A DNA stretch of 64,000 nucleotides. Origin: Shinella sp. CPCC 101442 (lineage in GTDB: Bacteria > Pseudomonadota > Alphaproteobacteria > Rhizobiales > Rhizobiaceae). The stretch is from the NCBI RefSeq assembly GCF_024704725.1, contig NZ_JALIQS010000006.1, positions 186,001 to 250,000 of the forward strand. Reading direction: 5' to 3'. The translations under genes were made by a program, and so were the position numbers. Shown in pieces: positions 1 through 18,674 of the stretch (positions are counted from its first letter, which is position 1; every line of letters begins with the position of its first letter). The notes under the pieces were generated by a model. It ran no database searches, had not been told where the DNA came from, and was given only the letters and a program-made list of their open reading frames with translations.

Positions 1-573
1 GCGCTGATGCGGGCCGCCGGAGGCGTCGATGTCTGCGTCGTCTCGGGTGGCGATCCCGGCGTCTTCGCCATGGCGGCTGCGGTCTGCGAGGCAATCGATG
101 CCGGGCCGGAGGAGTGGAAATCCGTCGATCTCACCGTAGTGCCGGGCGTGACCGCCATGTTGGCCGTCGCCGCACGCATCGGTGCGCCGCTCGGCCACGA
201 TTTCTGCGCCATCTCGCTCTCCGATAACCTGAAGCCCTGGGACATCATCGAGAAGCGGCTGCGTATGGTGTCCGAGGCGGGCCTGGTGATCGCGCTCTAC
301 AATCCGATCAGCAAGGCGCGGCCCTGGCAGCTTGGCCGGGCCTTCGAAATCCTGCGCGAAACCCTGCCGGCCACGACCCCGGTCATCTTCGGCCGCGCCG
401 CCGGCCGGCCGGACGAGCGCATGCTGGTCATGCCGCTCGGCGAGGCGGAAGCGGAGCGCGCCGACATGGCGACCTGCGTCGTCATCGGCTCGCCGGAAAC
501 CCGCGTCATTGCCCGGCCCGGCCTGCCGGAGCTGGTCTATACGCCGCGTTTCCTGAAGGACGCCAGCAAATGA
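1..573 (+). CDS. cobJ: Precorrin-3B C17-methyltransferase, 5'-truncated by the window edge
   Basis: This enzyme uses SAM to methylate C17 and drive ring contraction in the aerobic cobalamin pathway. The frame is open from the first base, so the true start lies outside; about 190 residues are visible of a family length near 250. The tetrapyrrole-methylase core is visible as a GGDPGVFAMA loop near visible residue 18 and ALYNPISKARPWQ near residue 99. The last 37 bases overlap the 3' end of cobK on the other strand. cobL and cobM lie downstream on the same strand, which supports the call. The family is clear; the specific CobJ call rests on the motifs plus the cob neighbours. Confidence 0.9.
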   Translation, partial: ALMRAAGGVDVCVVSGGDPGVFAMAAAVCEAIDAGPEEWKSVDLTVVPGVTAMLAVAARIGAPLGHDFCAISLSDNLKPWDIIEKRLRMVSEAGLVIALYNPISKARPWQLGRAFEILRETLPATTPVIFGRAAGRPDERMLVMPLGEAEAERADMATCVVIGSPETRVIARPGLPELVYTPRFLKDASK

Positions 574-1307
574 TCGGCGTGCCGCACCGCATCCTCGACC
601 GTCTCGGCCCGGTGCTCATCGGCGACTGCCGGGCGCTCGACGAGAATGACGGGAAGGCCGAGTGCGCGTGCGGCGATGATTTTTCCGTAGGTCGCGTCTC
701 CGCCGGAATTCTTGCTGACGATCACGTCGATCTTTCTCGTCCGCAGAAGCGCGACCTCTTCCTCCACCGCGAAAGGTCCCCGCGCGAGCAGGTATTCGAC
801 ATCGGGCGCCTCGAGCGGCGGATCGACCGGATCGACGCTGCGCACGAGATAGTGGTGCTGCGGGGCGGCGTCGAAGGTTTTCGCCTCCTGCCGGCCGATG
901 GCGAGGAAGACGCGACGCGGCATCCCACCCAGCGCCGCCACCGCCGCCGTGACCGAGGTGACATGCGTCCAGCGGTCGCCGGAAACCGCCTCCCAGCCAA
1001 GCCGCTCCAGCCGCAGCAGCGGAACGCCGGCCGCCGCCGCTGCCGTGCGGGCATTGGCGGAAATCTGCTTGGCGAAGGGATGGGTCGCGTCGATGAGAAG
1101 ATCGATCGCATGCGTTGCAAGATAGGCTTCAAGGCCCTCCGCGCCGCCAAAACCGCCGGTGCGCACCGGCACGGGTTGCTGCGCGGGATCGAGCGTGCGG
1201 CCGGCGAGCGACAACGTGACGGCAAGATCAGGCCTTTCGCCGAGACGGCCCGCCAGGTCGCGTGCCTCCGTGGTGCCGCCCAATATGAGGATGCGTCGCT
1301 TGTCCAC
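537..1307 (-). CDS. cobK: Precorrin-6A (6x) reductase
   Basis: CobK reduces the precorrin-6A macrocycle with NADPH in aerobic B12 synthesis. The 256-residue product begins [19 protein letters not shown], with the typical N-terminal GGTTEAR nucleotide-binding loop, then DATHPFAKQIS near residue 75 and GGDATYGKIIAARALGLP near the C-terminus. I chose the GTG at 1305-1307 because the upstream extension is not CobK-like and this gives the family length. It lies opposite the other cob genes: its 3' end overlaps cobJ by 37 bp and its 5' end overlaps the likely start of cobL by about 23 bp. Confidence 0.88.
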   Translation of the reverse strand: MDKRRILILGGTTEARDLAGRLGERPDLAVTLSLAGRTLDPAQQPVPVRTGGFGGAEGLEAYLATHAIDLLIDATHPFAKQISANARTAAAAAGVPLLRLERLGWEAVSGDRWTHVTSVTAAVAALGGMPRRVFLAIGRQEAKTFDAAPQHHYLVRSVDPVDPPLEAPDVEYLLARGPFAVEEEVALLRTRKIDVIVSKNSGGDATYGKIIAARALGLPVILVERPAVADEHRAETVEDAVRHADHLLASFRKRGV

Positions 1308-2562
1308 GCCTGATCGATCCCTTGTGCCTGCCGCCCCGTGGCTTTCCATCGTCGGGATCGGCGAGGACGGTCTAGCCGGTCTCGGCGAAGAGGCCAAGGC
1401 CGCGATAAGCCGCGCGGACATCGTCTTCGGCGGCGCGCGGCACCTGGAGCTTGCGGATACGGCCATTCGCGGCGAGCGCTGCGGCTGGCTCAGCCCGTTC
1501 GAGCGCTCCGTGGAGGCGGTTCTGGCCGTACGCGGACGACCGGCCGTCGTGCTCGCCTCGGGCGATCCCTTTTTCTACGGCGTCGGCGTGACGCTCTCGC
1601 GCCGCATCCCGCGTGCGGAAATGCGGGTCTTCCCCGCGCCCTCTGCCTTCAGCCTCGCGGCATCCCGCATGGGCTGGGCGTTGCAGGATGCCGTTTGCCT
1701 GTCGCTGCACGGTCGACCTATCGACCTGATCCGCCCGCATCTGCATCCGGGCAGTCGCATCCTCGCACTGACGTCCGACAGTGACGGTCCTGCTGCGCTC
1801 GCCGCCCTGCTCGCTGAAAGCGGTTTTGGAAGATCGACGCTGACGGTTCTCGAAGCGCTCGGTGGAGCACGCGAACGCACAAGCAGCCAGCAGGCGAAAA
1901 CCTTCGCGCTGGCGGATGCCGACATGCTGAATGTCTGCGCGGTAGAGGTTTCGGCCGACGAGACGGCGCGTATTCTCGCCTATACGCCGGGTCTCGACGA
2001 CGCGCTTTTCGAGCATGACGGCCAGATCACCAAGCGCGAGGTGCGCGCGCTGAGCCTCTCGGCGCTGGCGCCGAAGCGGGGTGAACTGCTGTGGGATGTC
2101 GGGGGCGGTTCCGGCTCCATCGGCATCGAATGGATGCTTGCCGATCCCTCGCTCAGGGCGATCGCCATCGAGGGCCATAGCGACCGCGCCGCGCGCATCC
2201 GGCGCAATGCGCAGAATTTCGGCGTGCCGGGCCTTGTCGTCGTGGAAGGCACCGCGCCCGCGGCGCTGGAAGGGCTCGCTGCGCCCGATGCCATCTTCAT
2301 CGGCGGCGGCGGCAGCGAGGCGGGCGTGATGGCGGCGGCGCTGGCCGGGCTGAAGCCCGGCGGCCGGCTCGTCGCCAATGCGGTGACGACGGAAATGGAG
2401 GCGGTGCTGCTTTCCCGCCATGCCCGGCTGGGCGGGTCGCTCATTCGCATCGATATCGCCCGCGCGTCGCCTGTCGGACAGATGACGGGCTGGAGGCCGG
2501 CCATGCCGGTCACGCAATGGAGCTGGGTGAAGCCGGCCAAACAGTTTGAGGATCAGCAATGA
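1285..2562 (+). CDS. cobL: Precorrin-6Y C5,15-methyltransferase (decarboxylating), CbiE-CbiT fusion
   Basis: CobL methylates C5 and C15 of precorrin-6B and removes the C12 acetate carboxyl. Its two halves are both visible: an N-terminal CbiE-type tetrapyrrole methylase ([12 protein letters not shown], then [11 protein letters not shown]) and a C-terminal CbiT-type Rossmann methyltransferase with the SAM loop [17 protein letters not shown]. The length, about 425 residues, fits the fused aerobic enzyme. Start candidates are ATG 1285, ATG 1291 and GTG 1324; none has a strong ribosome site. The 5' end overlaps divergent cobK. The stop overlaps the cobM start as ATGA, so cobL and cobM are probably translationally coupled. 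Confidence 0.92.
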
Positions 2563-3323
2563 CCGTTCACTTCATCGGCGCCGGCCCGGGTGCCGCCGAC
2601 CTTATCACCGTGCGTGGCCGCGACCTCATCGGTAAATGCCCGGTCTGCCTCTATGCCGGCTCGATCGTCTCACCGGAGCTTCTGCAATATTGCCCGCCCG
2701 GTGCGCGCATCGTGGACACCGCGCCGATGTCGCTCGACGAGATCGAGGCGGAATATATCAGGGCCGATGCGGCGGGCGAGGACGTGGCGCGGCTGCATTC
2801 GGGCGACCTTTCGGTGTGGAGCGCCGTTGCCGAGCAAATCCGGCGGCTCGCGAAAAACGGCATCGGCTATACGATGACGCCGGGCGTGCCCTCCTTTGCG
2901 GCCGCCGCCGCAGCGCTTGGCCGCGAACTCACCATTCCCGCCGTGGCGCAGAGCCTCGTGCTCACCCGCGTTTCCGGCCGCGCCTCGCCGATGCCGAACC
3001 GGGAGACGTTGCAGGGATTTGGCGCGACGGGCGCGACGCTCGCCATCCACCTCGCCATTCATGCGCTCGACCAGGTGGTGACGGAACTGACGCCGCTCTA
3101 TGGCGCCGATTGCCCGGTGGCGATCGTCGTCAAGGCCTCCTGGCCGGATGAGCGCGTCGTGCGCGGCACGCTTTCCGACATCACGGCGCAGGTGGCGCAG
3201 GAGCCAATCGAGCGCACCGCGCTGATCTTCGTCGGCCATTCGCTGGCGGCGGAGGATTTTCGCGAAAGCTCGCTCTACGATCCCGCCTATCAGCGTCGTT
3301 TTCGCGGCCGCGACGGGTTCTAG
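2559..3323 (+). CDS. cobM: Precorrin-4 C11-methyltransferase
   Basis: CobM transfers a methyl group from SAM to C11 of precorrin-4. The 254-residue protein starts [20 protein letters not shown], the classic tetrapyrrole methylase start, and carries [16 protein letters not shown] and [15 protein letters not shown], which are characteristic of CobM/CbiF. It begins inside the cobL stop (ATGA) and is the last gene of this visible cob segment. Its TAG stop forms the edge of a palindromic intergenic repeat. The gene looks complete and ordinary. Confidence 0.93.
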
Positions 3324-8300: not shown

Positions 8301-9153
8301 AGGTTTCGGCGATGCCGGAGATTTCGGCGAGATGGGCGCGCATCGCATTTGCGCCAAGGGCGCAGTTGAGGCCGATGGAGAACGGGTCCGCGTGGCGCAC
8401 GGAGTTCCAGAACGCCTCGGGCGTCTGGCCCGACAGGGTGCGGCCGGAGAGATCGGTGATGGTGCCCGAGATCATGACGGGCAGGTCGATGCCCTTTTCC
8501 TCGAACACTTCCCGCGTCGCGAAGATCGCGGCCTTGGCATTCAGCGTGTCGAAGATGGTTTCGATGAGGATGATGTCGGCGCCGCCGTCGATGAGGCCGC
8601 GCACCTGATCGGCATAGGCGATGCGCAGGTCGTCGAAGGAGACGGCGCGGTAACCGGGATTGTTGACGTCGGGCGAAATGGAGGCGGTTCGGTTCGTCGG
8701 CCCGAGCGCGCCGGCAACGAAGCGGCGACGGCCGTCCTTTTCCTGCGCGCGCAGGCAGGCGCGGCGGGCAAGGCGCGCGCCGTCGCGGTTCAGTTCATAG
8801 ACCATGTCTTCCATGCCGTAATCGGCCTGGGCGATGGTGGTGGAGGAGAAGGTGTTGGTTTCGAGGATGTCGGCGCCCGCCAGCGCATAGCGGTAGTGGA
8901 TGTCCTCGATCGCGCCCGGCTGGGTCAGCGTCAGGAGGTCGTTGTTGCCCTGCTGGTGGCAGGCGCAGTCGCCGAAGCGGTCGCCACGGAAATCGTCCTC
9001 GACCAGTTTCAGCGTCTGGATTTCCGTACCCATCGCTCCGTCGAGCACCAGAATGCGCTCGCGCGCAGCGCTCTCAAGCGCCGAGCGAATCTCGGCGCCA
9101 TTCCGTTTCGGCTGTTCAGGGCCGAACAGGGTGTCCAGGTGGGATGCGGCCAT
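5362..9153 (-). CDS. metH: Cobalamin-dependent methionine synthase
   Basis: MetH transfers the methyl group of 5-methyltetrahydrofolate to homocysteine through cob(I)alamin. The 1263-residue protein shows all four modules. The homocysteine-binding domain has [12 protein letters not shown] and zinc cysteines in GLNCALG and [11 protein letters not shown]. The folate domain has [15 protein letters not shown]. The B12 domain has the cobalt-ligating [12 protein letters not shown] near residue 783. The C-terminal SAM/activation domain includes [15 protein letters not shown] chose ATG 9153 because GGAGGG lies about 8 bases upstream; a start at 9195 would fall inside the palindrome. The leader carries a hairpin overlapping that ribosome site and a SahR-like operator. 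Confidence 0.97.
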
Positions 9154-9160
9154 GGGAAAA

Positions 9161-9190
9161 CCCTCCGATGCAGGCGATACTGCATCGGAG
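9161..9190 (-). promoter_or_regulatory. metH ribosome-binding site partly inside a 10-bp stem-loop
   Basis: On the minus strand the metH leader has a perfect 10-bp stem (CTCCGATGCA paired with TGCATCGGAG, 9163-9190) with an 8-nt loop. The 3' arm ends in GGAG, which is part of the GGAGGG Shine-Dalgarno sequence (9161-9166). Folding would mask the ribosome site, so this could be a translational switch or a protein-controlled element. It does not resemble the SAM-II consensus that I know. Confidence 0.5.
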
Positions 9191-9193
9191 TTC

Positions 9194-9213
9194 ACATAAA
9201 GATATCTTTATGT
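9194..9213. promoter_or_regulatory. Perfect 20-bp palindrome upstream of metH, SahR-like operator
   Basis: ACATAAAGATATCTTTATGT is a perfect 20-bp palindrome 41 bp upstream of the metH start. From memory it resembles the AAAGATATCTTT core described for SahR, an ArsR-family repressor that responds to S-adenosylhomocysteine and controls metH and related genes in Proteobacteria. A partial copy (ACCTTTATG) follows at 9220-9228. Repressor identity is inference; no SahR gene is in this window. Confidence 0.65.
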
Positions 9214-9237
9214 CAATATACCTTTATGCGCTTGACC

Positions 9238-9453
9238 CTAGTGTTTAGGTCCGTCCGCGCCCGCGAGGGAGGCAAACAGCGTCCTGAGGCGGAGGATATC
9301 GGGATCGGCGCTTTGGCAGCGGGCGAGATTTTCCACCTCCTTCAGCGCCTCGACCGCAAGGTCGGCGCCGCGCGGCTGCCAGAGCAGCCAGGAGATGAAG
9401 ACGGATTCCGGCTTGCCGGTGCCGGATGGCTTGATGTCGGTGAATTGAAACAT
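9238..9453 (-). CDS. Small protein of unknown function downstream of the cobalamin riboswitch
   Basis: This 71-residue protein (MFQFTDIKPSGTGKPESVF...) has no family I recognise. It is soluble, with a WLLWQPRGADLAVEALKEVENLA helix-like middle and no signal peptide. I chose ATG 9453 because GGGGAAG lies a few bases upstream; an alternative ATG at 9498 adds 15 residues whose DNA contains a strong hairpin. It is the first gene after the cobalamin riboswitch and ends 84 bp before metH on the same strand, so it could be co-transcribed with metH. Its coding reality rests on position, a ribosome site and a plausible protein-like sequence. Confidence 0.6.
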   Translation of the reverse strand: MFQFTDIKPSGTGKPESVFISWLLWQPRGADLAVEALKEVENLARCQSADPDILRLRTLFASLAGADGPKH

Positions 9454-9458
9454 TTCTT

Positions 9459-9477
9459 CCCCAATCGAAAATTGGGG
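9459..9477 (-). promoter_or_regulatory. RBS-sequestering hairpin, probable riboswitch expression platform
   Basis: A perfect 7-bp stem (CCCCAAT and ATTGGGG, minus strand) with a 5-nt loop lies directly before ATG 9453; its 3' arm supplies the GGGG of the Shine-Dalgarno sequence. It lies about 85-110 bases downstream of the B12 box, so it could be the translational switch of the riboswitch. Inference only. Confidence 0.45.
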
Positions 9478-9561
9478 GATGACCGGACGCACGCTCATGG
9501 AGGCTCGCCCGAGGGCGACAACAAGCGCACCCTTGGGACACCCCGCCCATGGACGTTACTG

Positions 9562-9757
9562 ACGTGTCGGGGCAGGTCTCCTGGCTTGCGGGTCATTGCC
9601 TTTGTCTCGCCTTCCCGGTGGTTCACACCAGTGGCATGGATCGACATCGGCTCGCCGTTCACAGTTGCGGGGGCAGCGCCGGTCTTGATGCTCTCTCAAG
9701 CATCGCACCGGCTTCCCTCTTAGCCTCCGAGCCGCAAACGACTCGGAAGACCCTGAC
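9562..9757 (-). ncRNA. Cobalamin riboswitch
   Basis: The minus strand reads, in order, a GGCTAAGAGGGAAGCCGG element, CTGCCCCCGCAACTGTGA, a CACTGGTGTGAACCACCGGGAAGGC segment and the B12 box AAGCCAGGAGACCTGCC (9571-9587). All are conserved blocks of the adenosylcobalamin riboswitch in the right order and spacing. It faces the small ORF at 9238-9453 and then metH. The outer boundaries are approximate, as the P1 stem cannot be placed exactly by eye. Confidence 0.93.
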
Positions 9758-10178
9758 GGCCGGAGACTGGCTTGGCGGGGAGGGCAAGTCAATGGTGCGG
9801 GGTGATGATGCACAGGCCCGGAACTTTTTTCCACCCAGTGCATTTGGCCTTCCGCCTGTCTCCTGCCCCTCGCCCGTCTCGCTGGCGAGGGCGTGATTCA
9901 CCAAAACCGCAGATGAGGACCTATGCCGAGCCATCCCGACACGCTCAGATGTTGCAAGTCTCTGTCCTTACGGCTAAAAAATGCCGTTTTCATGCACCAC
10001 GCGGCCAGGATGCCAAACAGCGTGTCGCCTGAGCCATGTTCCATCCATTCGCGCCTCGAAGGTGCCGTATGGTGTCATGGCTGATCGCGGCACAGAGACG
10101 AAACCTGCCCGCAAAAAACCTTCCGGCGCAAAGGCCGCTGTCGGATGGTTCAACATGGCCGGATCCAGATTAAGAAAT
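9758..10178. other. Noncoding divergent region between the riboswitch and ndvB
   Basis: These 420 bases hold no convincing gene. They must contain the promoter of the minus-strand riboswitch transcript (TTGACT on the minus strand near 9790 is a possible -35 box) and the ndvB promoter and leader on the plus strand. In-frame upstream starts for ndvB at 9981, 10077 and 10155 are possible but not preferred. I see no strong repeats or terminators. Confidence 0.5.
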
Positions 10179-13100
10179 ATGTCCCTTAACAATACGCCGC
10201 CCGCCTCCCGCGACGCAGACGCCAAGCAGATCGATTATAACGATTCGATCCGCGCCAACTATCTGACGCTGGAGGAGCTGGCCGATTGCGGCGAGGCTCT
10301 GGCGCGCGACAAGACCGCGCCGCTGCCGGGCTACCGGCCCTTCGAATTCCGTCCGCGCCACAAGGAAAACGAGAAGGAAATTTTCCGCGTCTACCAGACG
10401 ACGGCCAAGGACGTTGAATCCGGGGCACAGATCACGCCCGCCGCCGAATGGCTGCTCGACAATTATTACGTCATCGAAGAGGCCATCCAGGAGGTCCGCC
10501 GCGACTTCCCGCGTCGTTTCTACCGCCAGCTCCCGACCATCGAGATCGACGGGCAGCAGGTGCCGCGCACGCTGGTGCTCGCCTGGCTCTACGTTGCCCA
10601 CACCCAGAGCAATATCGCGCATGATAGCCTGACCGCCTTCGTGCAGGGCTTCCAGAAGATCGATGCGTTGAAGATCGGCGAACTCTGGGCGCTGCCTTCG
10701 TTCATTCGCTTCGTGCTACTCGAAAACCTTCGCCGCATTTCCAGCCGCGTCGAGCGCTCCCGCAAGATGCGCTTCAAGGCCAACGATGTCGCCGACGAAC
10801 TGGTTCGCCTCAACGATCCCGAGAAGAGCATCCAGTATCTGCGCTCGATCGAGAATTTCGTCGAGGACAACACGTTCGTCACGCAGCTGCTTTACCGGCT
10901 GCGGGATGGCCTGCAGGCCTCCGGTGCGGTGATCCAGTGGCTGGAACGCAAGATCGAGAGCCGCGGCAGCGATCTCGAAGAGCTGATCGTCTCGGAAAAC
11001 AACCGCCTGTCTTCCGGCAATGCGACGATGAGCTCGCTCATCAAGAGCCTGCGCACCGTCGACGACACGGAATGGCCCGTCTGGTTCGAGAGCGTCAGCC
11101 GCCTCGACGAGGCGCTGCGCCAGGGCTCGGACTATTCCGATCTCGATTTCGGCTCGCGCAACAAGTACCGCAACACGATCGAGCGCTTCGCCCGCCGTTC
11201 CGGCAAGACGGAACTCGAAGTCACCGAGATCGCGCTCGCCATGACGGCCGAGGATGCGGCCGCCCATGTCGAAGATCTCGACTACGAGGCCAATGTCGCC
11301 GCCTTTCTCGTCGGCAAGAAGCGCAAGCAGCTCGAAAAGCGCATCGGCTACCGCCCGTCCATCGTCCAGCGCATCGTGCGCTTCGGTCGCAAGCTCGACT
11401 GGTTCGCCATTGCCGGGCCGATTATCCTCCTGACGCTGCTCGCGATGATCGCGGTCTTCTACTTCCTCGATCAGCTCGACATCCCGAACGGCGCCTGGCT
11501 GATCATGCTGGTGCTCTTCGCGCTGCCGGCCTCCGAGGGGGCGTCGGGCCTGTTCAACACGCTTGTCACCTTCTTCGTCACGCCCTCGCGCCTCGTCGGC
11601 TACGAGTTCAAGGACGGCATTCCCGACGATGCGCGCACGCTCGTCGTCGTGCCCTGTCTCATTTCCAAGCGCGACCATGTCGACGAACTCGTGCGCAATC
11701 TCGAAGTGCACTATCTCGCCAATCCGCGCGGCGAGATTTACTTCTCGCTGGTCAGCGACTGGACGGACGCCCAGGTCGAGGAAACGCCCGCCGACCTCGA
11801 AGTGCTGGAATATGCCAAGCGGGAGATCGCAGCCCTCTCGGCGCGCTATTCCTATGACGGCCGCACGCGCTTCTACCTCTTGCACCGCCGCCGGCTCTAC
11901 AATCCCTCCGAGGGTGCCTGGATGGGCTGGGAGCGCAAGCGCGGCAAGCTGCACGAGCTGAACCTGCTCCTGCGCGGCGACGGTGACACGACCTTCCTGC
12001 CGGGCGCCAACATGGTGCCGCCGGATGTGAAATACGTCATGACGCTCGATTCCGACACGCGCCTGATGCGCGATGCCGTGACGAAGCTCGTCGGCAAGCT
12101 GCACCACCCGATCAACCGCCCGGTCATCGACGCGGAAAAGGGTAAAGTCACCGCCGGCTACAGCATTCTCCAGCCGCGCGTTACGCCGTCGCTCACGACC
12201 GGCAAGGAAGCCTCGACCTTCCAGCGCATCTTCTCCGCCGACCGCGGCGTCGACCCCTACGTCTTCACCGTCTCCGACGTCTATCAGGACTTTGCCGGCG
12301 AAGGCACCTTCACCGGCAAGGGTCTCTATCACGTCGATGCCTTCGAGGCCGCCGTGAAAGGCCGCATCGGCGAAAACGCCGTGCTCAGCCACGATCTGCT
12401 CGAAGGCTCGCTCGCGCATTGCGCGCTCGTCACCGACGTCGAGCTCATCGAGGACTTCCCGACCCGCTACGGTGTGGAAACCTCGCGCCAGCATCGCTGG
12501 GCGCGCGGCGACTGGCAGTTGCTGCCCTACATCTTCAATCCGGCAAGCGGCATTTCCATGCTCGGCCGCTGGAAGATGTACGACAACCTGCGCCGCAGCC
12601 TCATCCCGATCGCCTGGCTCGTCGCCTCCGTCATGGGCTGGTATTACATGGAGCCCCGCCAGGCGCTGATCTGGCAGCTCGTGCTGATCTTCCTGCTCTT
12701 CGTCGCCCCCACGCTGTCGCTCATTTCCGGCATCATGCCGCGCCGCGGCGATATCGTCGCGCGCGCCCACGTGCATCGGGTCTTTTCCGATATCCGTGCT
12801 TCCAATGCGCAGGTCGCGCTGCGCATCGCCTTCATCGCCCATTCGGCGGGACTGATGGCCGATGCCATCGTGCGCTCGCTCTACCGTACCTTCGTCAGCC
12901 GCAAGTTGATGCTGGAATGGCGCACGGCCGCACAGGCCGACAGTGCCTCGCGCGGCGGCATTCTCGATCATTACAAGTCGATGTGGCAGGCACCGGCGCT
13001 GGCCGCCGTTTCCGTGGCGCTCGCCATGATCTCGGATACGGGCCTGCCTTTCATCGGTGTGCCCTTCGCGCTCGTCTGGGCGCTCTCGCCGGCGATCGCC

Positions 13101-16100
13101 TGGTATGTCAGCCAGACGGCGGAGACCGAAGACCAGCTCGCCGTTTCCGACTATGTGGCGACGGAACTGCGCAAATATGCCCGTCGCACCTGGCGCTATT
13201 TCGAGGATTTCGTGACCGCCGAGCAGCACTACCTGCCGCCGGACAATTTCCAGGAAACGCCGCAGCCGGTGCTGGCCGAACGCACCTCGCCGACCAATAT
13301 CGGCGTCTACCTGCTGTCCGCCATCTCGGCGCGCGATTTCGGCTGGATCAGCTTCGAGGAGACGGTCCGTCGCCTCGAGCAGACCATCGCCACCATCGAC
13401 GGCATGCCGAAATATCGCGGCCATCTCTACAACTGGTATCGCACCAACACGCTGGAAACGCTCGGCCCCCGCTACGTCTCGGCGGTCGACAGCGGCAACC
13501 TCGCCGGCCACCTCATCGCCGTCTCCTCCATGTGCCGCGAATGGGCGGAAGCGCCCTCGGCGCACCTTCAGGGAAGTTTGGACGGTATCGGCGACGTCGC
13601 CTCGATCCTGTCGGAAACCTTGAAGAAGCTGCCGGATGACCGCAAGACCGTGCGTCCGTTGCGCCGTCTCATCGAGGAGCGCATCGTGGGCTTCCACAAT
13701 GCGCTCGCCGCCGTCAAACGCGAGCACGAATTCGCCTCGATCCGCGTCATCAACCTCTCGGTGCTGGCGCGCGACGTCAACAAGCTGATCGTCAATCTCG
13801 ACCACGAAATCAAGTCGGCTGACAGCGGCGAACTGGCCAAATGGGCGGGCGCGCTGGTCGCCACCTGCGAGGCGCATATCGCCGACAGCGTCTTCGACCT
13901 CGGCTCGATCGAGGGCCTGCGCGACCGGCTCATCGTTCTGCGCGACCGTGCTCGCGACATCGCCTTCTCGATGGATTTCGGCTTCCTGTTCCGCCCGGAG
14001 CGGCGCCTGCTCTCCATCGGTTATCGCGTCGAGACCAACGAACTCGACGAGGCCTGCTACGACCTTCTGGCCTCGGAAGCCCGCCTCACCAGCCTCTTCG
14101 CCATCGCCAAGGGCGACCTTCCGACCGAGCACTGGTACAAGCTCGGCCGCCCGGTCGTGCCGGTCGGCTCGCGCGGGGCCCTGGTCTCCTGGTCCGGCTC
14201 GATGTTCGAATATCTGATGCCGCCGCTCGTCATGCAGGAGCGTCAGGGCGGTATCCTCAACCAGACCAACAATCTGGTCGTGAAGGAACAGATGAACCAC
14301 GGCCGCCGTCTCGGCACGCCCTGGGGCATTTCGGAAGCGGCCTTCAATGCCCGCGACCACGAACTGACCTACCAGTACACGAATTTCGGTGTGCCGACGC
14401 TCGGCCTCAAGCGCGGTCTCGGCCAGAATGCCGTCATCGCGCCCTATGCCTCGCTGCTCGCCGCGCAATACGCACCGAAGGAGGCGCTTGAGAATCTCGA
14501 GCGCCTGCGCAAGCTCGGCGCGCTCGGCGTCTATGGTTTCCACGATGCCGTCGATTTCACGCCGACGCGCGTGCCCGAAGGCAAGACCTGCGCGGTGGTG
14601 CGCAACTACATGGCCCACCATCACGGCATGTCGATCGCCGCGGTTGCCAACGTGGTCTTCAATGGTGCGCTGCGCGAACGCTTCCATGCCGATCCGGTCA
14701 TCGAGGCCGCCGAACTTCTCCTGCAGGAAAAGGCGCCGCGCGACATTCCGGTTATCAACGCCAAGCGCGAGCCGGAAACCGTCGGCAGCACGCAGGCCGA
14801 CCTGCTGCGCCCGGAAATCCGCATCATCGAAAACCCCTTCGCCAAGGAGCGGGAAACCGTTTTCCTGTCGAACGGACACTATTCGGTGATGCTGACGGCG
14901 AACGGTTCGGGTTACTCGCGCTGGAACAACCAGTCCGTCACGCGCTGGAAGCCCGATCCGACGGAAGACCGCTGGGGTTCCTTCCTCTTCCTGCGCGACA
15001 CCGTTTCCGGTGAATGGTGGTCCGCCACCGCGGAGCCGAAGCGCATCGAAGGCGAGAAGACGAAGACGCAGTTCGGCGACGACAAAGCGGAATTCGTCAA
15101 GACGATCGGTTCGCTGACCAGTGAGGTCGAGGTCATCGTCGCCACCGAGCACGATGCCGAGGGCCGTCGCCTGACGCTTCTCAACACCGGCACGGAAGAC
15201 CGCTTCATCGAAGTGACCTCCTATCTGGAGCCCGTCATTTCAACGGACGACGCCGACAGCGCCCATCCGCTGTTTTCCAAGATGTTCATCCGCACGGAGA
15301 TCGGCAAGCGCGGCGACGTTATCCGGGCGGAGCGCAACAAGCGCAATCCGAACGAGCCGGACATGACGATCGCCCATCTGATCGTCGACAATGCCGGCCC
15401 GTCGCGCCGCACCGAGATCGAGACCGACCGCCGCCGCTTCATCGGTCGAGGCCGCACGCTCGCCACCGCTGCGGCTTTCGATCCGGGTGCGCAGCTTTCG
15501 GGCACGGACGGCTTCACGCTCGATCCGGTTCTGGCGCTGCGCCGCGTGGTGCGCGTGCCCGCCGGCAAGAAGGTCAAGGTCATCTTCTGGACCATTGCGG
15601 CCCCGAGCCGCACCGAGGTGGATTCCGCGATCGATCGCTACCGCCACCCGGAAAGCTTCAACCAGGAAATGATCCATGCCTGGACGCGCTCGCAGGTGCA
15701 TATGCGCCATGTCGGCGTCACCTCGCAGGAGGCGGCGAGCTTCCAGATGCTCGGTCGCTATCTCATCTATCCCGACATGCATCTGCGCGCCGACGCCGGC
15801 ACCATCCAGACGGGGCTGACCGCCCAGTCGGCGCTGTGGCCACTGGCGATCTCCGGCGACTTCCCGATCTTCGTTTTGCGCATCAACGACGAGATCGATC
15901 TCGATGTTGCCCGCGGGGCGTTGCGTGCGCAGGAATATCTGCGCCATCGCGGCGTGACCGCCGATCTGGTCATCCTAAACGAACGCGCCTCTTCCTATGC
16001 GCAAGACATGCAGCACACACTGGACCAGTTGTGCGAAAACCTGCGCCTGCGCGGCCAGTCCGACGGCATGCGCCAGCATGTCTTCGCGGTGCGTCGCGAC

Positions 16101-18674
16101 CTGATGGAAGTCTCCACCTGGCAGGCGCTGCTGGCGACCGCCCGCGCCGTCTTCCATGCGCGCAACGGCACGCTCTCCGACCAGATCGCAAGAACGGTTT
16201 CGCTCTTCTCCTCGCCGCGCGGCGAGGAGGAGACGAAGACGGAAGCAACGGTGGCCCCTTCGAAGTTGCCAGCGCCCGTTGCCGTCGAGCCGGTCAAGAT
16301 CGACGGCGAAGGCCTTACCTTCTGGAACGGCTTCGGCGGTTTCAATGCCGACCGTCGCGAATATGCCGTGCGTCTGCGCGGCGGCGCGGCAACGCCGCAG
16401 CCGTGGATCAACGTCATCGCCAACAAGGACTTCGGTTTCCACGTCTCCGCGGAGGGTGCGGGCTTCACCTGGAGCCGCAATTCACGCGACTTCCAGTTGA
16501 CGCCCTGGACGAACGACCCGGTCGTCAACCGCCCCGGCGAGGCCTTCTATGTGCGCGATCGCGACCGGGGCACGGTCATGTCGCCGTTTGCGGCACTGTC
16601 GCAGCGCCCGTCGGTGAAGTTCGAGACCTGGCATGGCCTCGGCTACACGGCCTTCCGCAGCTGGGAGGACGGCATCGAGCTCGATCTCGTGCAGACCGTC
16701 GATCCGCAGGACCCGGTCAAATATTCGCGCCTCGTGGTGAAGAATACCGGCGAAACGGATCGCAGCCTCTCCGTCTACGGCTATGTCGAATGGGTGCTTG
16801 GCAACAATCCCGCCAAGACCGCTCCGTTCATCTTGACGAGCCATGACGAGGAGAGCGGTGCGCTCCTTGCAGCCAATCCCTACAGCTTCGATTTCTCGGG
16901 GCGGACCAGTTTCTTTGCCGTCGATGCGCCGCTTGCCGGTTTCACGGCAAGGCGCCGGGACTTTATCGGCAAGGGCGGCGATATCGCGTCTCCTTCGGCC
17001 ATTGTTGCCGGTCAGCCGCTTTCCGGCGCGACCGACGGCATGGGCGATCCCTGCGCCGCGCTGAATGTCGACATCACGCTGAAGCCGGGTGAAAAGCGCG
17101 AGCTGCTTTTCGTGCTTGGCGACACGGCCGATGCGGAAAGCGCCAGGGCGCTGGCCGAAAAGAGCCGCAAGGTCGATTTCGATGCCGTCATGACGGCGGT
17201 GCGCGCCTTCTGGGAAGACTTTACCGGCACCTTGCAGATCAAGACGCCGGACGCAGCACTCGACCGCATGGTCAACGACTGGCTGCCCTATCAGGCGCTC
17301 GGTTGCCGCATCATGGCGCGCTCGGCCTTCTACCAGGCAAGCGGCGCCTATGGTTTCCGTGACCAGCTGCAGGATACGCTGGCCTTCGTGCTGCACAGGC
17401 CGGAGCTTGCCCGCAAGCAGATCCTCAACGCCGCCTCGCGCCAGTTTGTCGAGGGTGACGTGCAGCATTGGTGGTTGCCGGACAGCGGTGCCGGCGTGCG
17501 TACGATGATCTCCGACGACGTGGTGTGGCTTGCCCATGCGGTGGAATACTACTGCCGTGCCTCGGGCGACCGTGCCGTGCTCGACGAGACGCTTGCCTTC
17601 ATCGAGGGCCAGCCGCTCGCCGAGGGGCAGCACGATTCCTTCTACAAGCCGGGCCGCTCTTCCGAGGCGGTATCGCTCTACGAGCATTGCATCCGTGCGC
17701 TCGATCTCGCGATCCAGCGCACCGGCGAGAACGGCCTTCCGCTCATCCTCGGCGGCGACTGGAACGACGGTATGAACCGGGTCGGCGAAGCCGGCCGCGG
17801 AACCAGCGTCTGGCTCGGCTGGTTCCTTGCCGGCACGTTGCGCGGCTTCATCGCCATTGCGCGCGAACGTGGCGATCATGGCCGGGCGGATGCGTGGGAA
17901 GGCCATCTCGGCCGTCTCAAGCAGGCGCTGGAAACGGCGGGCTGGGACGGTGGTTACTACCGTCGCGGCTACTTTGACGACGGCACGCCCCTCGGCTCGT
18001 CGGCAAGTGCCGAATGCCGGATCGATTCCATCGCCCAGAGCTGGAGCGTGCTCTCCGGAGAGGGCGATGCCGAACGGTCGCGCCTGGCGATGGATGCCGT
18101 CATGGAAAATCTCGTCGACCGGGAAAACGGCATCATCCGCCTGTTCACCCCGCCGCTGGTCGAGACCCCGCAGGATCCCGGGTACATCAAGGCCTATCCG
18201 CCGGGCGTTCGCGAAAACGGCGGACAATATACCCATGCCGCGACCTGGGTCGTGCTGGCGCTGGCTCGCCAGGGCCGGGCGGACGACGCGTTCGCCTGCT
18301 TCGATATCCTCAACCCGGTCAAGCATTCGCTCGATCCGCAAGCGGCCGAACGTTATCGCGTCGAGCCCTATGTGGTGGCCGCTGACGTCTATGGCGAAGG
18401 CGAGCGCACAGGGCGGGGCGGCTGGAGCTGGTATACCGGCTCGGCGGGCCTGCTCTACCGCGCGGCGGTCGAGGGCATTCTCGGCATCCGCAAGGAAGGC
18501 GATCGCCTCTTCGTCAATCCGGTCCTGCCCACGGCGTGGAACGGTTATGGCGCGACGCTCAACCTCGATGGCAAGAAGGTCACGATCCGCGTCGATCGCG
18601 ATGACGATGGTGGATGGCAGGCAAGTGTGAACGGCACTGTCATCAAATCTTCAAACGAGGGTTATTTGCTCTGA
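10179..18674 (+). CDS. ndvB: Cyclic beta-1,2-glucan synthase
   Basis: NdvB (ChvB, Cgs) is a large inner-membrane protein that initiates, elongates and cyclises periplasmic beta-1,2-glucans from UDP-glucose. From ATG 10179 the product is 2831 residues, matching the known family size, which is why this start was chosen. A GT84 domain carries MTLDSDTRLM near residue 623 and QHRWARGDW near 770. Hydrophobic pairs lie near residues 410-470, 800-850 and 940-980. The C-terminal GH94 phosphorylase-type domain has LGGDWNDGMNRVG near residue 2523 and is thought to trim chain length. opgC follows closely and ndvA is convergent. The frame is intact over its whole length. Confidence 0.96.
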   Translation: MSLNNTPPASRDADAKQIDYNDSIRANYLTLEELADCGEALARDKTAPLPGYRPFEFRPRHKENEKEIFRVYQTTAKDVESGAQITPAAEWLLDNYYVIEEAIQEVRRDFPRRFYRQLPTIEIDGQQVPRTLVLAWLYVAHTQSNIAHDSLTAFVQGFQKIDALKIGELWALPSFIRFVLLENLRRISSRVERSRKMRFKANDVADELVRLNDPEKSIQYLRSIENFVEDNTFVTQLLYRLRDGLQASGAVIQWLERKIESRGSDLEELIVSENNRLSSGNATMSSLIKSLRTVDDTEWPVWFESVSRLDEALRQGSDYSDLDFGSRNKYRNTIERFARRSGKTELEVTEIALAMTAEDAAAHVEDLDYEANVAAFLVGKKRKQLEKRIGYRPSIVQRIVRFGRKLDWFAIAGPIILLTLLAMIAVFYFLDQLDIPNGAWLIMLVLFALPASEGASGLFNTLVTFFVTPSRLVGYEFKDGIPDDARTLVVVPCLISKRDHVDELVRNLEVHYLANPRGEIYFSLVSDWTDAQVEETPADLEVLEYAKREIAALSARYSYDGRTRFYLLHRRRLYNPSEGAWMGWERKRGKLHELNLLLRGDGDTTFLPGANMVPPDVKYVMTLDSDTRLMRDAVTKLVGKLHHPINRPVIDAEKGKVTAGYSILQPRVTPSLTTGKEASTFQRIFSADRGVDPYVFTVSDVYQDFAGEGTFTGKGLYHVDAFEAAVKGRIGENAVLSHDLLEGSLAHCALVTDVELIEDFPTRYGVETSRQHRWARGDWQLLPYIFNPASGISMLGRWKMYDNLRRSLIPIAWLVASVMGWYYMEPRQALIWQLVLIFLLFVAPTLSLISGIMPRRGDIVARAHVHRVFSDIRASNAQVALRIAFIAHSAGLMADAIVRSLYRTFVSRKLMLEWRTAAQADSASRGGILDHYKSMWQAPALAAVSVALAMISDTGLPFIGVPFALVWALSPAIAWYVSQTAETEDQLAVSDYVATELRKYARRTWRYFEDFVTAEQHYLPPDNFQETPQPVLAERTSPTNIGVYLLSAISARDFGWISFEETVRRLEQTIATIDGMPKYRGHLYNWYRTNTLETLGPRYVSAVDSGNLAGHLIAVSSMCREWAEAPSAHLQGSLDGIGDVASILSETLKKLPDDRKTVRPLRRLIEERIVGFHNALAAVKREHEFASIRVINLSVLARDVNKLIVNLDHEIKSADSGELAKWAGALVATCEAHIADSVFDLGSIEGLRDRLIVLRDRARDIAFSMDFGFLFRPERRLLSIGYRVETNELDEACYDLLASEARLTSLFAIAKGDLPTEHWYKLGRPVVPVGSRGALVSWSGSMFEYLMPPLVMQERQGGILNQTNNLVVKEQMNHGRRLGTPWGISEAAFNARDHELTYQYTNFGVPTLGLKRGLGQNAVIAPYASLLAAQYAPKEALENLERLRKLGALGVYGFHDAVDFTPTRVPEGKTCAVVRNYMAHHHGMSIAAVANVVFNGALRERFHADPVIEAAELLLQEKAPRDIPVINAKREPETVGSTQADLLRPEIRIIENPFAKERETVFLSNGHYSVMLTANGSGYSRWNNQSVTRWKPDPTEDRWGSFLFLRDTVSGEWWSATAEPKRIEGEKTKTQFGDDKAEFVKTIGSLTSEVEVIVATEHDAEGRRLTLLNTGTEDRFIEVTSYLEPVISTDDADSAHPLFSKMFIRTEIGKRGDVIRAERNKRNPNEPDMTIAHLIVDNAGPSRRTEIETDRRRFIGRGRTLATAAAFDPGAQLSGTDGFTLDPVLALRRVVRVPAGKKVKVIFWTIAAPSRTEVDSAIDRYRHPESFNQEMIHAWTRSQVHMRHVGVTSQEAASFQMLGRYLIYPDMHLRADAGTIQTGLTAQSALWPLAISGDFPIFVLRINDEIDLDVARGALRAQEYLRHRGVTADLVILNERASSYAQDMQHTLDQLCENLRLRGQSDGMRQHVFAVRRDLMEVSTWQALLATARAVFHARNGTLSDQIARTVSLFSSPRGEEETKTEATVAPSKLPAPVAVEPVKIDGEGLTFWNGFGGFNADRREYAVRLRGGAATPQPWINVIANKDFGFHVSAEGAGFTWSRNSRDFQLTPWTNDPVVNRPGEAFYVRDRDRGTVMSPFAALSQRPSVKFETWHGLGYTAFRSWEDGIELDLVQTVDPQDPVKYSRLVVKNTGETDRSLSVYGYVEWVLGNNPAKTAPFILTSHDEESGALLAANPYSFDFSGRTSFFAVDAPLAGFTARRRDFIGKGGDIASPSAIVAGQPLSGATDGMGDPCAALNVDITLKPGEKRELLFVLGDTADAESARALAEKSRKVDFDAVMTAVRAFWEDFTGTLQIKTPDAALDRMVNDWLPYQALGCRIMARSAFYQASGAYGFRDQLQDTLAFVLHRPELARKQILNAASRQFVEGDVQHWWLPDSGAGVRTMISDDVVWLAHAVEYYCRASGDRAVLDETLAFIEGQPLAEGQHDSFYKPGRSSEAVSLYEHCIRALDLAIQRTGENGLPLILGGDWNDGMNRVGEAGRGTSVWLGWFLAGTLRGFIAIARERGDHGRADAWEGHLGRLKQALETAGWDGGYYRRGYFDDGTPLGSSASAECRIDSIAQSWSVLSGEGDAERSRLAMDAVMENLVDRENGIIRLFTPPLVETPQDPGYIKAYPPGVRENGGQYTHAATWVVLALARQGRADDAFACFDILNPVKHSLDPQAAERYRVEPYVVAADVYGEGERTGRGGWSWYTGSAGLLYRAAVEGILGIRKEGDRLFVNPVLPTAWNGYGATLNLDGKKVTIRVDRDDDGGWQASVNGTVIKSSNEGYLL

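Follow-up and report, generated by a model that had tools for sequence, protein, structure and literature searches.

A cobalamin riboswitch, a gene for a protein of 71 residues and the B12-dependent methionine synthase gene metH follow one another on the minus strand of the window (the whole 64-kb stretch of DNA analysed here), and we think it likely that they represent two separately controlled genes in a row. The riboswitch would act on the small protein, a putative effector in B12 shortage, and metH would answer to the repressor SahR, with a hairpin insulating it from transcripts that come from upstream.

The order on this strand is the cobalamin riboswitch, the 71-aa ORF, a 20-bp palindrome, a hairpin and metH (Table 1). 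The initial annotation had placed the first, second and last of these in a row on one strand, and this was borne out by an RF00174 match of 125.8 bits (gathering score 31.5) over the full model, 1-189, at 9554-9770, by the coding part of the small ORF at 9241-9453 with its stop at 9238-9240, and by metH from 9153. The end assigned to the riboswitch, 9757, was short, as the model match extends 13 nt beyond it to 9770. This is the single Rfam match over the gathering score in the window. The metH ORF scores 1741 bits against TIGR02082 (equivalog, cut-off 1011) and 2163 bits against NF007024 (cut-off 1497). The divergent neighbour, at 9981-18674, is a long ORF that resembles a cyclic-glucan-synthase gene (ndvB-like). 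Beyond metH, the frames at 1-3323 presumably resemble the late cobalamin-synthesis genes cobJ, cobK, cobL and cobM, so that metH sits near a cob cluster. In a scan of named genomes the closest matches were Shinella species, and we take the window as belonging to this genus.

Table 1. Features between the cobalamin riboswitch and metH, in order of transcription
Feature	Position in window	Strand	Evidence
Cobalamin riboswitch aptamer, RF00174	9554..9770	-	Rfam, 125.8 bits, E 3.4e-31; one of eight in the genome
Candidate P13/L13 hairpin of the expression platform, TGGGCGGGGTGTCCCA	9534..9549	-	Read by eye; GGGG complementary to CCCC of aptamer loop L5
Hairpin CCCCAAT..ATTGGGG that includes the Shine-Dalgarno G-run; the small-ORF ATG follows after 5 nt	9459..9477	-	Sequence and folding
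Small ORF (71 codons and a stop) for a protein predicted to form three helices	9238..9453	-	ORF, homologues, codon bias, model
Conserved TTGACA, candidate -35 of the metH promoter, overlapping the operator	9211..9216	-	Conserved across metH leaders
Putative SahR operator, 20-bp palindrome	9194..9213	-	Genome recurrence, conservation before metH
Hairpin over the metH Shine-Dalgarno sequence	9162..9190	-	Folding and compensatory changes
metH, B12-dependent methionine synthase, 1263 aa	5362..9153	-	NCBIfam TIGR02082 and NF007024

The leader between the aptamer and the small ORF carries a candidate expression platform. An L5-L13 kissing loop is described for cobalamin riboswitches in part of PMC9600662; here the complementarity of L13 and L5 at 9534-9549 was seen by eye, and the folding method used does not model kissing loops. 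The sequence TGGGCGGGGTGTCCC is present in all 19 Shinella-clade loci inspected (L009-L027), and the leaders of metE and nrdE in the genome under study each carry a near copy. With one simple test, a CCCC..GGGG hairpin was detected just before the start in 17/17 Shinella loci and in 16 of the 28 other directly placed loci (it was absent by that test in the remaining 12), compared to 6 positives among 1000 shuffled sequences; by eye, similar G-run hairpins precede metE and the nrd cluster in the genome under study. Folding of the small-ORF leader yielded no alternative (anti-sequestor) structure that would open the Shine-Dalgarno hairpin, the sole terminator-like site found lies inside the leader, and a consensus scan of the minus strand over 9100-9990 gave no sigma-70-like promoter. 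At high B12 the aptamer would fold with the L5-L13 contact and the hairpin before the small ORF would stay shut; when B12 is short, the 71-aa protein would be made along with the rest of the riboswitch regulon of the genome. We infer both this direction of control and the role of the Shine-Dalgarno hairpin as the switch. The metE gene of the same genome, which stands under a riboswitch (L001), shares by eye the GGGG-bearing L13-like hairpin and the G-run hairpin before the start; it differs in that metE encodes a B12-independent isozyme and is an expected target, whereas metH is B12-dependent. In Priestia megaterium, according to part of PMC9600662, metE is preceded by a SAM-cobalamin tandem riboswitch.

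The metH gene has a regulatory element of its own. When up to 3 mismatches were allowed, the palindrome CATAAAGATATCTTTATG (9195-9212) occurred at five places in the 6.1-Mb genome, one perfect and four with 1-3 mismatches, and the reversed control at none. The five sites precede metH, a gene for a protein with an ArsR HTH and a methyltransferase domain (sahR-like, site at C3:526263), ahcY, bhmT and metK, and the SahR targets reported for Ensifer aridi, in the part of PMC8877191 that deals with them, are the same set: metH, sahR, ahcY, bhmT and metK. Assignment by gene set thus supports the palindrome as the SahR operator by its regulon in this genome. Compared to the SahR regulon as partly set out in PMC4239095 and PMC8877191, the 20-bp palindrome before metH, the sahR-like gene, ahcY, bhmT and metK is shared; the B12-riboswitch unit directly upstream of the SahR-controlled metH is the difference, and nothing else is unusual. 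The operator was found before metH in 33/33 loci with a riboswitch and the small ORF upstream, in 5/5 inspected loci of the nrdAB type, and in 18 of another 20 metH loci. In these 20 the 1.5 kb upstream of metH is free of riboswitches, though one of them, G228, has an nrdAB-type unit further upstream. A promoter for metH at the palindrome had been suggested in the initial annotation. This is supported by the operator, assigned by its regulon and kept before metH with or without the riboswitch. In the consensus scan mentioned above, neither a metH promoter nor a terminator between the small ORF and metH was found. Because of the former result, the position of the promoter is deduced from the operator together with the conserved TTGACA; because of the latter, read-through into metH is possible. 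Transcription of metH would start from a promoter of its own, controlled by SahR, which is a repressor answering to S-adenosylhomocysteine. In three genomes metH appears to be split into two adjacent frames, with roughly positions 2-340 of the model in the first frame and the remainder in the second (G200:C1:2995744-2999282, G039:C11:83392-86927 and G030:C11:611205-614800).

In 24 loci from Shinella and neighbouring genera, which comprise 20 distinct sequences, the metH Shine-Dalgarno sequence lies within a stem of 11 bp. Two-sided changes occur at six of its pairs, amounting to 18 cells compared to 6.4 in shuffles (0/500 as high), and 90.5% of the cells are paired, although kinship of the sequences alone can exceed shuffles without any structure. 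Pairing of the stem is kept, and the loop varies in length and in sequence. Leaders with a riboswitch unit fold with energies from -7.6 to -24.1 kcal/mol and those of four Shinella species without the unit are weaker (-10.3, -10.3, -4.9 and -4.9 kcal/mol); L027, from a riboswitch-bearing genus, is a counter-example to insulation, with a weak hairpin of -7.6 kcal/mol, and folding in other metH leaders that lack a nearby riboswitch likewise speaks against it. In this survey the starts of L117, L121, L187 and L188 look wrong, L191 and L201 gave no result, so the group means are rough and the comparison relies on the rows of the Shinella clade. The hairpin would be present in closed form on a transcript reading through from upstream, and absent from one that starts near or in its 5' arm; for this reason we regard it as a probable insulator of metH. 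The comparison, which is confounded by descent, suggests that the hairpin keeps riboswitch transcripts running into metH from being translated. That it is instead a sensor in its own right (a thermosensor or a further riboswitch) acting on all metH mRNA is a doubtful reading but the best of the alternatives: some metH leaders that lack a nearby riboswitch likewise have a hairpin behind the operator, and the native mRNA may hold the whole hairpin. The variable loop on a kept stem, the lack of any Rfam family match at this place and the weaker folding in the four Shinella species that have no riboswitch unit upstream argue against a sensor.

Control of the small ORF and metH as one operon, in which B12 shortage would raise MetH too, is unlikely on balance. 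The two genes lie on the same strand, with 84 nt from the small-ORF stop to the metH start and neither a terminator-like site nor a consensus metH promoter in between, and in L132, L137, L142, L158 and L167 metH ends a row of the type riboswitch-nrdA-nrdB-small-(cobF)-metH. Against this reading stand the operator found before metH in all 33 and in all five nrdAB-type loci, the location of the metH Shine-Dalgarno sequence within a covarying hairpin that any read-through transcript would carry, and the fact that metH keeps both operator and position where the riboswitch and the small ORF are absent. Such is the case in four Shinella genomes (G002, G003, G005 and G020), in which metH lies beside the same ndvB-like gene with its operator, and neither the small ORF nor a riboswitch is present between the two. 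In a tree of metH, G003 and G020 are placed beside two species with riboswitch and small ORF (support 0.964) and G002 and G005 have no settled place; because of this nested position, the absence in G003 and G020 looks like a loss. As they are absent jointly in four species, the riboswitch and the small ORF appear to come and go as one unit, independently of metH. G002 and G005 also lack the B12-dependent class II ribonucleotide reductase that is present in 63 of 66 genomes searched, and among the riboswitch matches left in these two genomes some have low scores.

The reading of two separately controlled genes requires that the riboswitch belongs to the small protein, as had been proposed at the outset, and the neighbourhoods of its homologues point the same way. 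Riboswitches were located with a profile built from 53 riboswitch sequences, since a regular expression for the aptamer had overlooked known cases. Surroundings were read for the non-Shinella matches of the family and order searches, and a rescan kept 79; outside these fell a 790-aa frame in G475 (E 0.009 on rescoring), a 25-residue match behind nrdB in G257:C9 with no riboswitch found, and a match in G045 under the rescan threshold, though with a same-strand riboswitch about 0.2 kb upstream. The second of these (L241, G257:C9:72000-84500) resembles a remnant, and its whole stretch is free of riboswitch matches. A cobalamin riboswitch was present upstream on the same strand in 76 of the 79 matches, at a distance of up to 400 nt in 28, of 2-3 kb in 36 (the distance of GbcA/GbcB-like operons), of 4-4.4 kb in 10 (that of nrdAB operons) and farther in 2. 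The three others are a partial copy (L123), where a wider stretch did show a riboswitch before nrdA, a locus whose contig ends about 2.6 kb upstream (L143), and a partial match of 36 residues and 31 bits with no riboswitch in the stretches read (L157). Rfam confirmed the riboswitch in 22/23 loci of various operon types, the exception being L143 at its contig end. Within Shinella the riboswitch accompanies the small ORF in 17/17 genomes (the one under study and 16 others), and a scan by named genomes, a largely overlapping set, gave 37/38; in the one exception the contig extends for 876 nt upstream. As background, 42 riboswitches over the cut-off were counted in 10 genomes (about 50.3 Mb), six of which carry the small protein; by our arithmetic, a random position has a chance of about 0.2% of a same-strand riboswitch within 5 kb upstream. 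Because the matches were selected by protein only, the link to the RNA is not circular. That the small protein is a member of the B12-riboswitch regulon and no leader of metH is therefore well supported by sequence comparison.

The small gene changes its operon and keeps the riboswitch. The arrangements seen are riboswitch-small-metH, riboswitch-small-cobF, riboswitch-small-btuB/btuF/btuC-like, riboswitch-small-oxygenase, riboswitch-(GbcA-like)-(GbcB-like)-small, which is the commonest placement (36/79 by distance), and riboswitch-nrdA-nrdB-small, at times followed by cobF and metH. Partners were named with NCBIfam on one representative each: NrdA, NrdB, CobF and MetH scored over the cut-off and the GbcA/GbcB-like and BtuB/BtuC-like proteins below. 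The oxygenase reached 501 of the 670 required for GbcA and the reductase 378 of the 500 for GbcB, hence the term "like". L136 and L141 each have two units in opposed orientation, with riboswitch-small encoded on one strand and riboswitch-GbcA-like-GbcB-like on the other. The genome under study has 8 cobalamin riboswitches in total; others precede metE, a class Ib ribonucleotide reductase cluster (nrdE), a GbcA-like gene, a periplasmic-binding-protein gene (ABC), bluB and cbtA, the metE and nrdE frames being cut by the locus ends and scoring under the cut-off. The small ORF is thus placed like the other first genes of the regulon. A riboswitch with no clear target gene behind it (L007, G000:C1:1080182-1080351) lies about 2.5 kb downstream of the one of metE. 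A survey of the RF00174 regulon in 255 genomes sorted its genes into synthesis, B12 uptake, cobalt transport and isozymes (PMC3766115, in part). The aptamer is common to that regulon and the present loci, as are the classical targets nrdAB (B12-independent isozymes), cobF (synthesis) and btu-like genes (uptake); the directly controlled gene differs, encoding here a small protein that matches no described family.

We propose with modest confidence, from genomic context, a role for the small protein as an effector or adaptor in B12 shortage, because cobalamin shortage, and not one enzyme, is what its operons share. It might serve several B12-linked operons in common, for instance as a helical adaptor on a shared partner, which is a guess. 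One operon partner, the GbcA/GbcB-like pair, is plausibly a B12-independent alternative by analogy, as other bacteria link the demethylation of betaine to a B12-dependent transfer of methyl groups (PMC12478193, in part). A fuller version can be put forward only tentatively, with the odds somewhat against it: an undescribed family of three-helix effectors made only at low cobalamin, moving between riboswitch operons and aiding the shift to enzymes that work without B12, perhaps through contact with B12 enzymes that stand idle or with a common partner, and set off near metH by a hairpin that silences read-through. A factor specific to MetH (for its loading, reactivation or inhibition) is improbable by comparison. 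The idea of a B12-linked accessory factor, voiced in the initial annotation, fits in its link to B12, and a MetH-specific role is not supported. In favour of such a role, a metH gene was called in 28 of the 76 non-Shinella stretches (21/69 without the near genera g55 and g12). Against it, none was called in the other 48, the commonest placement is behind GbcA/GbcB-like genes, and at E <= 1e-100 MetH is missing from 8 of the 38 genomes that encode the small protein. MetH at this threshold (30/38 genomes with the small protein, 18/28 without) and the class II ribonucleotide reductase NrdJ (37/38 and 26/28) gave no useful discrimination. Those 48 stretches, together with the joint absence of riboswitch and small ORF from four Shinella species with metH still in place, also favour the small protein as the true target of the riboswitch. 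Cobalamin riboswitches, SahR and metH are already known, and no description of the small-protein family or of its linkage to the riboswitch was found in the open-access literature. In more than 25 genera the cobalamin-riboswitch regulon, whose genes are taken as known, is accompanied by an unnamed protein family, which hints at a side of the B12-shortage response that has gone unstudied; its size and its known signal make the role directly testable. For metH, the paradox is resolved in that a B12-dependent gene is not necessarily the target of a riboswitch that precedes it.

Evidence that the small ORF is a real gene comes from its homologues and its codon usage. A single-sequence search found homologues in 25/151 genomes, 17 of the own genus (the genome under study included) and 8 of other genera, and pairwise differences among nine Shinella copies number 322/259/848 at codon positions 1/2/3. 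A profile of 15 small-protein sequences, built on the protein alone and blind to RNA, detected it in 74/394 genomes and 28/109 genera of the bacterial family searched, which we take to be Rhizobiaceae in the GTDB sense; the frame thus recurs in relatives, and the search for homologues and neighbourhoods that the initial annotation had advised led to cobalamin-riboswitch operons in 76 of 79 cases. Matches were rare in the wider samples: 8/397 genomes from the order, of which three are from the same family (the genome under study included) and one is weak, and, with a second profile, 3/289 from the class (this genome and two weak matches). No relative was found in Pfam, NCBIfam or PHROG beyond chance-level matches, nor in the PDB by sequence or by fold, the best of eight structure-search matches not being under E 4. 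A search of plasmids matched two from Phyllobacterium, in which the features under the match are annotated as a hypothetical protein and a ribonucleotide reductase beta subunit, and a second query gave no plasmid match. The conserved pattern is PE..F..WL..P...D...A, with no Cys or His column invariant or nearly so, and the AlphaFold2 model, from 28 sequences, predicts helices at 15-24, 32-44 and 51-66 with a moderate mean pLDDT of 76. A leader peptide or chance frame whose translation regulates metH would fit the shortness of the ORF and its place between riboswitch and metH, but is very improbable given the third-position bias, the spread over 28 genera, the three-helix model and the frequent position of the gene as the last behind a riboswitch, often with no metH in the stretch.
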